Below are positions 10,401-35,373 of a DNA stretch of 39,628 nt, piece after piece. Source of the stretch: Mariprofundales bacterium (GTDB lineage Bacteria > Pseudomonadota > Zetaproteobacteria > Mariprofundales > J009); contig JAUZRF010000013.1 in NCBI GenBank assembly GCA_030950645.1, positions 1 through 39,628 on the forward strand, written 5' to 3'. Below the pieces are notes generated by a model, which was not told the DNA's origin, made no database searches, and saw nothing but the letters and a program-made list of their open reading frames with translations. Made by a program: the position numbers and the translations under genes. The first letter of the stretch is position 1, and the number at the start of each line of letters is the position of its first letter.

Positions 10401-11164
10401 GACGCTCGCTTCTGTTGCGGTTTGGGGGCGGTCTTGCGCTAGTGCTCTCCGCATTTCCATCGGCGGCGACTGCCGCAGCGATCACCGTTGCAGTAGCGGC
10501 CAACTTCTACCGTCCGATGCAGGAGATTGCGGCCAATTTCAGCCGAACTCACCACCATTCGGTGCGGCTGGTCTCTGGCTCTACCGGCAGGCTTTACACC
10601 CAGATCGTTCAAGGAGCACCGTTTGATCTGTTCGTGGCCGCAGATGTCGCTCGCCCCAAGCGGCTAGAGACGGAGGGGCAGATTCGACCCGGCAGCCGTT
10701 TCACCTATGCCACCGGCTCGCTGGTACTGTGGAGTGCGCGTCAAAACCTGAATCTGAAAAGGCAGGGAATGGCGATCCTGCTTGCGCCAACGGTGCGCAT
10801 CATCGCCATCGCCAACCCCAAGACCGCGCCATACGGTGCTGCCGCGATGCAGGCCATCACATCAGTATTCAAACAAAAACAGCTCGACCGCATCACCGCC
10901 AAACTCATCTATGGCGAGAGTGTGGCACAGGCGATGCTGTTTGCCCATTCAGGCAATGCAGATATTGCCATCTTGCCCGCCTCCAGCATCGTGGGTGCCA
11001 AGGGTCACATCTACCGAGTTGGCGCGGGGCGCTACCGCCCGATCATTCAGCAGGCGGTGGTGTTGCGCGGTGCGGGAATTGCAGCCGTTGCCTTAGCCGA
11101 CTACCTGCGCTCGTCTGCCGTCGTCCCGGTGTTACAAAAATATGGTTATGGGGTGCCGCAATGA
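10397..11164 (+). CDS. modA: Molybdate ABC transporter substrate-binding protein
   Basis: Signal peptide then ITVAVAANFYRPMQEIAANF...SGSTGRLYTQIVQGAPFDLFVAAD. Confidence 0.92.
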   Translation: MRRSLLLRFGGGLALVLSAFPSAATAAAITVAVAANFYRPMQEIAANFSRTHHHSVRLVSGSTGRLYTQIVQGAPFDLFVAADVARPKRLETEGQIRPGSRFTYATGSLVLWSARQNLNLKRQGMAILLAPTVRIIAIANPKTAPYGAAAMQAITSVFKQKQLDRITAKLIYGESVAQAMLFAHSGNADIAILPASSIVGAKGHIYRVGAGRYRPIIQQAVVLRGAGIAAVALADYLRSSAVVPVLQKYGYGVPQ

Positions 11165-12675: not shown

Positions 12676-13170
12676 ATGGAGACTGAGAAGGCTTTAACCC
12701 ATTTTAATACAGCCGGACGGGCACAGATGGTGGATGTGTCGCACAAGGATGTGACCACGCGCATCGCCCGCGCCAGTGGTGATATCCAGATGCAGCCGGA
12801 GACCCTGAAGCGCATTCAACAGCAGTCATTGTACAAAGGTGATGTGCTGGGAGTAGCCGATGTGGCTGCAATCATGGGGGCGAAAAAGACCCCTGAACTG
12901 ATCCCGATGTGTCATCCGCTGATGCTGTCGGGGGTCGATGTGGCATTCTCCGATCTGGAGCAGAAGACGGGGATTCATGTGGCGGTTTCCGTCAAGTGCA
13001 ATGGCAACACTGGCGTGGAAATGGAGGCACTAACCGCAGTAGCCACAGCACTGCTGACAATCTATGATATGTGCAAGGCGGTGGATCGCGCCATGGTGCT
13101 GAGCAACATCCGTCTGGACGAAAAATCCGGCGGTAAATCTGGCGTGTGGAGACGAGATAACCATGCCTGA
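12676..13170 (+). CDS. moaC: Cyclic pyranopterin monophosphate synthase MoaC
   Basis: MVDVSHKDVTTRIARA...IPMCHPL...GNTGVEMEALTAV...YDMCKA. Confidence 0.95.
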   Translation: METEKALTHFNTAGRAQMVDVSHKDVTTRIARASGDIQMQPETLKRIQQQSLYKGDVLGVADVAAIMGAKKTPELIPMCHPLMLSGVDVAFSDLEQKTGIHVAVSVKCNGNTGVEMEALTAVATALLTIYDMCKAVDRAMVLSNIRLDEKSGGKSGVWRRDNHA

Positions 13171-33007: not shown

Positions 33008-33738
33008 GAACTCGCGCGCTGGCGATGAAAGCGTTTGGCCACTGGCTCCTCAACCCGTGGCAACTCACCCTTGGCGCAGACAATCACCCCCCATACAAGT
33101 GGTGGCGCATGCGCCCCATTACCCTATTCTCCATTCTGGCAATGTTTGCGCTCGCGATACAACCCACACCACCGAGCCAACATCCAACCACTCCGCCGCC
33201 ACCGCCACCGATTCCACTGCCAGCACCACCGTCACATCAACTCCTTCAGATGGAAACAGATGCGGCGTTAGCACAGGCGCGTGCCGACGCGCTGAAAAAC
33301 ACCTTAACCTTAAAAAGCGATCAGCTTAACCATGCGAGGCGTCGCCTCTCTGCGCTCGAGTCTATTCTCAAAGCACGCAAACATTATGGCATCCATCTCA
33401 TTGATAGCCAAATGAGCAAAAACTCCCACGGCCAATGGCAAATTGATCTCACCTTAGTACGGGGAGGAAACCATCGTGCACCGCTGCACCTCTTGCTTCA
33501 GGTCTTCGCCAACGGACACCTGGACCAACCACTTGCGATCAAAGTCCCGCCTAACGGCAAAATGAAGTCCACCCTGGCGATTGATGTCATGACCCACGCC
33601 TTTATCCATATCGTGATGGCTTGGCCCACCAAATTGCAGGTGCATGGCGTGCTGATATTGGCCAATGATACGGATGGCGGCACGCTGGCCTCGAATACGG
33701 TAAGCCCGATACTTTCCCTACAAGAATCATCCCCATGA
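32998..33738 (+). CDS. Single-TM protein with Pro-rich linker and coiled coil, function unknown (possibly DUF6776-like)
   Basis: TM ITLFSILAMFALAIQ, PPPPPPIPLPAPP, coiled coil, beta-rich C-terminus; ATGA overlap with next gene supports coding. Confidence 0.65.
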   Translation: MAVRTRALAMKAFGHWLLNPWQLTLGADNHPPYKWWRMRPITLFSILAMFALAIQPTPPSQHPTTPPPPPPIPLPAPPSHQLLQMETDAALAQARADALKNTLTLKSDQLNHARRRLSALESILKARKHYGIHLIDSQMSKNSHGQWQIDLTLVRGGNHRAPLHLLLQVFANGHLDQPLAIKVPPNGKMKSTLAIDVMTHAFIHIVMAWPTKLQVHGVLILANDTDGGTLASNTVSPILSLQESSP

Positions 33739-34286
33739 TTGCCCGTTGGAACCATCACTCCCCTGAGCTTGATCACCCCGCATTTCTGGCCCCTTCCGCC
33801 GATATTATCGGACGGGTACGCATTGGCCGGGACAGCTCGATCTGGTATCAGGCCGTGCTACGAGGCGATGTTGAGGAGATCATCATCGGTAGCCGCAGCA
33901 ATATTCAGGATCACTGCACCCTGCACACCAGCGATGTCACCCCCTGCATCATTGGCGATGGCGTGACCATCGGCCACCGCGTCATCCTGCACGGCTGCAC
34001 CATCGGTGATGGCTGCCTAATCGGCATGGGGGCGGTGATGATGGATCGCGCTGTGGTTGAACCCGGCTGTATCGTGGCCGCTGCTGCCCTAGTTACCGAA
34101 GGCAAGGTGCTAAAAAGCGGATTCCTTTATGCTGGAGCGCCAGCGCGGGAGCGCCGCGAACTGACCGCTGAAGAGCGTGCCTTTCTCCCCCGCTCTGCCG
34201 AACACTATGTGCAGGTGGCACTGCAACATCGGAACAGTTTACAGGTAATAAAACATAACTACTCAGCTCACTCCCGGTTTTCCTGA
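33735..34286 (+). CDS. Gamma carbonic anhydrase family protein (C-terminus altered by MITE)
   Basis: Left-handed beta-helix hexapeptides SADIIGRVRIGRDSSIWYQAVLRGDVEEIIIGSRSNIQDHCTLHTSDVTPCIIGDGVTIGHRVILHGCTIGD. Last residues HNYSAHSRFS are MITE-encoded. Confidence 0.92.
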   Translation: MIARWNHHSPELDHPAFLAPSADIIGRVRIGRDSSIWYQAVLRGDVEEIIIGSRSNIQDHCTLHTSDVTPCIIGDGVTIGHRVILHGCTIGDGCLIGMGAVMMDRAVVEPGCIVAAAALVTEGKVLKSGFLYAGAPARERRELTAEERAFLPRSAEHYVQVALQHRNSLQVIKHNYSAHSRFS

Positions 34287-34407
34287 TAGCGGCGTTGAAA
34301 AATGCTCATTTACAGTAGTAAACTCCGCTTTTTCGCCTTGCGATCAGAAAAACCGAAAGCAATCTGAGCAGTTACAGTCATTTTTTGGTAGGGTGCTGAG
34401 TAGTTAC
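34255..34407 (+). repeat. MITE, extended form (copy 13; core 34255-34375) with perfect 8-bp target duplication
   Basis: ataactactcagctcactcccgg...ctgagcagttacagtcattttttggtagggtgctgagtagttac; aataaaac at 34247-34254 and 34408-34415. Confidence 0.96.
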
Positions 34408-34416
34408 AATAAAACC

Positions 34417-35373
34417 ATGAATATCACCCCCTTTGCTGCCATCGACATTGGCTCCAATACTATCCGAATGATTATCGCCCACCGCGCTTCCGGAACCCCA
34501 CCGTGGCAAATTCTGCACTACCACCACCACATCGCCCGACTTGGCGATGGGGTGCGCAAGTCTGGTCGGCTTGGTGAGGCAGGAGCGGCGCGCGCCTTGT
34601 CTGCCTTACACGACTTGCTGGCGCGTTGCCAACGCTTTGGTGTGGCCACGGATCATATTTATGCTACCGCCACCGCTGCGGTACGGCAGGCAGAAAACGG
34701 CCAAGATTTCTGCCGTATGGTGGAGCGGGAATGCAAGATTCTGGTACGAATTCTGAGTGGGGATGAAGAGGCCGCACTCTCCCTACGAGGTGCTGCCACC
34801 GTGCTGGAGTCCGAGGTGCGCCAATCGATGCTGCTCTTTGATATTGGTGGCGGCAGTACCGAGTTCATCACGGTACGCGATGGTGCCATCACCCACGCCA
34901 TTAGCCGCCCCCTGGGGGTGATTCGACTGGTCGAAGAGGGGTTACAGAGCAATCCCCCCACCACGGAGGACTGGCAGTGCATGCGCAACTTGGCCGATGC
35001 CGAGTTGGATGCTGTCGATGCCTCCTGGGCCGCATCGCCATCTTCTCAGCAGGCAACCAAACATCTGGTCGGGACGGCGGGCACGGTGACCACCTTAGCT
35101 GCGGTAGCCATGGATCTCCACCCCTACGATGCGGCGGCAATCAACCGCTTTGTGCTCAAGCGCGCCCATTTCGACCAACTCAAAAACACCCTCTGCGCCA
35201 TGGATCTTGCTAGCCGCCAAGCGATTCCCGCCATTGAACAGGGGCGGGCAGATCTCATCATCGCAGGCTTAGTGATTATTGAGGCCATCTTTGATCGTTG
35301 GGGGCATACCGCACTACGAACCGTCGATTCTGGCCTAATGGAGGGGGTTCTCTCCGAGGCGCTAACCGGATAA
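34417..35373 (+). CDS. Ppx/GppA family phosphatase (exopolyphosphatase)
   Basis: FAAIDIGSNTIRMIIAHR...YATATAAVRQAENG...LLFDIGGGSTEFI...LVGTAGTVTTLAAV. ORF-track GTG at 34393 is in the MITE end; ATG 34417 is native. Confidence 0.92.
   Translation: MNITPFAAIDIGSNTIRMIIAHRASGTPPWQILHYHHHIARLGDGVRKSGRLGEAGAARALSALHDLLARCQRFGVATDHIYATATAAVRQAENGQDFCRMVERECKILVRILSGDEEAALSLRGAATVLESEVRQSMLLFDIGGGSTEFITVRDGAITHAISRPLGVIRLVEEGLQSNPPTTEDWQCMRNLADAELDAVDASWAASPSSQQATKHLVGTAGTVTTLAAVAMDLHPYDAAAINRFVLKRAHFDQLKNTLCAMDLASRQAIPAIEQGRADLIIAGLVIIEAIFDRWGHTALRTVDSGLMEGVLSEALTG

Follow-up and report, generated by a model that had tools for sequence, protein, structure and literature searches.

An IS66-related MITE inserted at a reconstructed stop-start overlap between gamma-carbonic anhydrase and exopolyphosphatase genes of a Mariprofundales bacterium

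MITEs inserted in operons and at the ends of genes have been described before. Chunjie, a 235-bp MITE of Geobacter uraniireducens, lies in an operon whose structure is undisturbed according to the title of the original report (Chen et al. 2008), as cited in PMC10969869. In Coxiella burnetii, copies of QMITE1 and QMITE2 at the 3′ ends of genes change the encoded C termini, including 33 C-terminal residues of EnhC (PMC5896051). MITECca01 of Cardinium derives from ISCca4 (IS982 family), of which intact parent copies are present in its genome; with 169 copies and 3.5% of the chromosome it is the most abundant mobile element there, and it is found mostly between genes or within other mobile elements (PMC9769881). 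Insertion sequences of the IS66 family, such as ISPpa5a and ISPpa7 of Paracoccus, give 8-bp direct repeats (PMC3281130).

Here we analyse a 153-bp element lying between a gamma-class carbonic anhydrase-like gene (gamma-CA) and a ppx gene in a 39,628-nt stretch of Mariprofundales DNA (the window). The element is a MITE, with every feature of that class that could be tested, and both its operon location and its position at a gene end have precedents. Like Chunjie as described, it has entered an operon, although the two differ in length. As with the QMITEs, insertion at a 3′ end has altered a C terminus; these appear to belong to a different family and occupy less than 1% of the Coxiella genome, compared with about 4% of our sample, which was chosen partly for matches. 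Whereas MITECca01 descends from an IS982-family parent, the element described here is IS66-related, and it shares the 8-bp direct repeats of the IS66 insertion sequences. A limited literature search found no description of an IS66-derived MITE or of this family.

The insertion site carries a clear transposon footprint (Table 1). Inspection of the sequence showed that the 8-bp repeat AATAAAAC directly abuts both ends of the element, one of many copies of this repeat in the window, which opens with ATAACTACTCAGC at 34255 and closes with GCTGAGTAGTTAC at 34407; for a single site, the chance of an exact 8-bp flank match is about 1.7e-5. Deleting the element together with one duplicate yields CAG GTA ATA AAA CCA TGA, so that the reconstructed gamma-CA is 174 residues long and ends QVIKP*, and its TGA overlaps the ppx ATG in a 4-nt ATGA. 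The predicted uninterrupted junction would thus read AATAAAACCATGA; this exact ATGA ancestor is a reconstruction derived from the duplication rather than from a sister genome. An earlier sequence-only reading had reported the exact aataaaac duplication around 34255-34407, the reconstruction to QVIKP* with an ATGA overlap, and six further ATGA overlaps in the window; we reproduced all of these, the six overlaps lying at 11161, 11829, 13859, 19344, 19883 and 31064. Pfam matches agree with the assignments modA/B/C, moaE/mobB, Memo/AMMECR1 and dnaJ/dapB at such overlaps. A seventh ATGA, at 33735, is formed by the gamma-CA start and the stop of the preceding gene.

Table 1. Features of the gamma-CA/ppx junction (window coordinates).
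Feature	Position	Strand	Evidence
Gamma-class carbonic anhydrase-like ORF, 183 aa	33735..34286	+	Pfam hexapeptide; NCBIfam; PDB; tail comparison
SD-like acaggt; ancestrally 9 nt from ppx ATG, now 170 nt	34241..34246	+	
Left target-site duplication copy, 8-bp, AATAAAAC	34247..34254	+	sequence
IS66-related MITE, 153-bp long form, 97% identical to family consensus	34255..34407	+	
Left terminal inverted repeat ATAACTACTCAGC (consensus GTAACTACTCAGC)	34255..34267	+	
TGA within element, present CA stop	34284..34286	+	
Inner TIR-like end, GTAACTGCTCAGA on - strand; equals outer end of 121-bp short form	34363..34375	-	
Right end GTAACTACTCAGCACCC on - strand; equals ends of complete IS66-type element in a relative	34391..34407	-	
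Right target-site duplication copy, AATAAAAC	34408..34415	+	sequence
ppx/gppA-type exopolyphosphatase, 318 aa, intact	34417..35373	+	Pfam PF02541 5.4e-53; NCBIfam TIGR03706

The insertion altered the end of one gene and the spacing of both. The gamma-CA ORF, which has a Pfam hexapeptide match and an NCBIfam gamma-CA match of 1.1e-49 that nonetheless falls below the model cut-off, now ends QVIK-HNYSAHSRFS*, its ten last residues and stop codon being insertion-derived in place of Pro-stop. Matches to gamma-CA structures in the PDB end at about residue 166-175, before this tail, which therefore lies outside the matched fold. The distance from the CA stop to the ppx start went from the reconstructed 4-nt overlap to 130 nt. 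The SD-like acaggt was also carried away from the ppx ATG, although by more than the roughly 160 bp first suggested, because 161 bp were added to an original spacing of 9 nt. Predicted pairing with the anti-SD sequence upstream of ppx is -3.8 kcal/mol in the reconstruction and -2.2 kcal/mol now, against a random median of -2.7. An in-frame GTG at 34393, within the element, could serve as an alternative ppx start. Uncoupling of the two genes, proposed in the sequence-only reading, is thus borne out as anatomy, by the lost overlap and the displaced SD-like match; at the level of translation, coupling of ppx to gamma-CA has likely been weakened, as judged from the sequence.

The unoccupied arrangement is seen in relatives. 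We compared 19 other Mariprofundales genomes (Zetaproteobacteria) that carry both gamma-CA and ppx; the family of the source genome comprises three genomes only, with no same-genus empty site among them, and one scan of genome contigs found no closer relative. In all 19, ppx comes next after gamma-CA without an intervening element. The enzyme is 167-175 residues long in these genomes, whereas the present ORF encodes 183 residues and the reconstructed one 174. Measured from the CA stop, the nearest in-frame candidate for the ppx start falls in the range -11 to +11 in 18 genomes; in the remaining order member, G002, the candidates are TTG at +3 or GTG at +48/+57. A 4-nt overlap using ATG or GTG is possible in three (GTGA in G001 and G021, ATGA in G037). 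Tight spacing is thus the general state of the gamma-CA-ppx pair in these relatives.

The element belongs to an amplified family. The source genome, grouped with the Mariprofundaceae by its named neighbours, is a 2.0-Mb draft in 134 contigs (91% complete), of which we sampled 531 kb, including the window. Both ends were present in 116 copies. The duplication is exact at 8 bp in 36 of these, whereas exact 7-bp duplications occur in none and exact 9-bp duplications in one; wrongly paired flanks, used as a control, match at 8/8 in 0.2%. Eight base pairs is the duplication length throughout the family. Copies matching at no fewer than 7 of the 8 duplication bases (54/116) formed the verified set used below. 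There are two size forms, of 121 bp and about 153 bp, and 8-bp duplications were found for each. Both are short and bounded by the terminal inverted repeat GTAACTACTCAG; the long form extends about 31-32 bp beyond the inner TCTGAGCAGTTAC to an extra outer end, of which there are two sequence types, starting AGCCATTTTTGG... or GGGATGTTTTCA.... Compared with the consensus of 52 long copies, the copy at 34255 is 97% identical, with five differing positions that include its first base, an A where 49 of the 52 have G.

Copy number is high, and at 153 bp the element is too short to hold an internal transposase. Matches of at least 100 bp occur at 133 places in the 531 kb, or 0.25 per kb, a density biased upward because stretches were picked partly for matches; on four long contigs the density is 0.20 copies per kb. 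Extrapolation from density suggests roughly 250-500 copies in the genome, and the family accounts for about 4% of the sampled sequence. The exact right-end 17-mer occurs at 183 sites genome-wide and its reversed control at none. A figure of 554 candidates was dropped as a copy number because the near-palindromic element matches both strands.

The ends of the element point to an IS66 parent. In the source genome PF03050 (IS66) matches a single remnant, on contig C51 (L067), which shares the 17-bp end; its last bases are GGGTGCTGAGTAGTTAC. A MITE copy flanked by an exact 8-bp duplication has split this remnant, and the 91%-complete draft yielded no intact IS66 transposase. Eleven MITE-bearing relatives were searched for IS66: full elements occur only in G032, and G020 has fragments. 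The complete element of G032 is a 2404-bp contig (L072) with 17-bp ends identical to those of the MITE, and its 480-residue transposase scores above cut-off for PF03050 and NF033517 and is 85% identical to the L067 remnant. The presumed parent thus encodes an IS66 transposase that the MITE lacks; the terminal repeats are common to the parent type and the MITE, and the sequence shared with the 2404-bp element is limited to these ends. Duplication length is likewise IS66-like by comparison with the Paracoccus elements (PMC3281130). The MITE is thus IS66-related, and an IS66-type transposase presumably mobilized it in trans.

The G032 element also has a DruA-like ORF (PF14236, 1.5e-32; L072:73-951) beside the transposase gene. 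Small accessory ORFs are usual in IS66 elements; DruA takes its name from the Druantia anti-phage system.

We then mapped the verified insertions against gene calls from a simple hexamer script, in which individual gene starts are approximate. By this tally 42 of the 54 lie between genes and nine inside a gene, no more than 40 bp from its 3′ end; the other three lie in the IS66 remnant, 85 bp from a gene 3′ end and at a gene 5′ end. Twelve occupy junctions of co-directional genes that are spaced, in the reconstruction, by 30 bp or less, four of them at 4-nt overlaps. The insertion at gamma-CA/ppx is thus real, but it is not a singular event: many coupled junctions of this genome carry a copy of the element, and insertion at coupled gene ends is a genome-wide pattern. 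Two of the other three 4-nt overlap insertions were compared with relatives. The ABC-transporter pair, ATPase/ABC-3 permease, overlaps tightly at -7, -4 and -7 in G001, G002 and G012, is close in two more genomes and is 477 bp apart in one; the gene/glycosyltransferase pair is uninterrupted with a -4 overlap in both family relatives. At the ATPase/ABC-3 permease overlap (L061:14273-14425) the duplication contains both the stop and the start, so both genes retain theirs. Upstream genes that run into the element stop immediately at an element TAA in five cases, and gamma-CA and one other gene gained a short element-derived tail. That other gene, on the - strand of L060 where the element starts at 12831 (strand coordinates), is reconstructed as ending ...STLYRKLEE and now ends ...YRKLEGNCSAHSRFSR. 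Across the 54 sites there is a weak palindromic preference centred on the duplication (A-7, A-6, C/T-5, T-2, mirrored by A+2, G/A+5, T+6, T+7). The distribution fits insertion limited by survival, with no need for a start-codon preference.

We consider it probable, at about 0.88, that an IS66-related non-autonomous MITE transposed into the gamma-CA/ppx overlap, probably uncoupling the two genes, and was tolerated there. The target AATAAAAC would have spanned the last gamma-CA codons and ended 1 bp before the ppx start codon. An IS66-type transposase, presumably acting in trans on the ~17-bp ends, would have cut with an 8-base stagger, and repair would have copied the staggered bases into the duplication. 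Both proteins stayed complete, gamma-CA exchanging its terminal proline for a 10-residue tail and ppx keeping its ATG. With the ATGA overlap replaced by a 130-nt hairpin-bearing spacer, stop-start reinitiation at ppx was probably lost or weakened. The insertion would be one among many tolerated at gene ends and coupled junctions, presumably because few other places in a compact genome accept the element. Transposition itself, as the sequence-only reading proposed, is strongly supported by the family-wide 8-bp duplication, the IS66-type ends and the unoccupied gene pair in 19 relatives.

The first and last of these observations also bear on whether the junction could be an artefact of assembly, in which a repeat with hundreds of copies mis-joined unrelated contigs. 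The draft is fragmented and many of its contig ends fall in or near the repeat, but a mis-join would yield neither matching 8-bp duplications nor flanking genes that are neighbours in 19/19 relatives, and we regard such an error as hardly credible. It is unlikely, too, that the element has been co-opted, its hairpin in the gamma-CA/ppx transcript acting as a signal for RNA processing, stability or translation that sets ppx expression. The element RNA does fold better than its shuffles (-47.6 kcal/mol, z -4.2), and the closely spaced co-directional genes around 12 of the 54 verified copies would suit such a role; a palindromic MITE, however, would fold regardless. No terminator was detected in the element and no Rfam family in the window. 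Among 32 copies, a two-sided change that keeps pairing was seen in 1 of 37 pairs and the covariation term was slightly unfavourable (+0.4), giving no sign of a conserved functional RNA in a test that has little power with such closely related copies.

That the element favours start codons or coupled stop-start junctions when it inserts, beyond being tolerated there, is quite improbable. An ATG lies 1 bp past the duplication in seven of the 54 verified copies, above every other offset tested, and the 4-nt overlaps struck (4/54) point the same way. Most of these ATGs, however, are not called gene starts, and cell survival explains the gene-end insertions. Start-codon targeting was rejected as the main cause since the preference for A at +2 of the palindromic pattern accounts for most of the ATG excess.

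Transposition into the overlap leaves a site at which a transposon footprint marks a 4-nt gene overlap whose unoccupied arrangement is seen in relatives, and it adds to the record an IS66-related MITE family of some 4% of the sequence sampled. The several coupled junctions that carry the same element provide a comparison set for how far a second gene depends on the overlap. We propose only tentatively, and with some doubt, that the family has broken stop-start overlaps at many co-directional junctions throughout this compact genome, altering coupling in several operons and adding short standard tails to proteins; were this so, the genome would offer a naturally occurring collection of gene pairs that have become uncoupled. 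In G036, a more distant member of the same order, the family search gave no IS66 match; this genome contains an amplified set of related elements of its own, most of the long matches being about 71-75% identical, and 13 exact end 17-mers.
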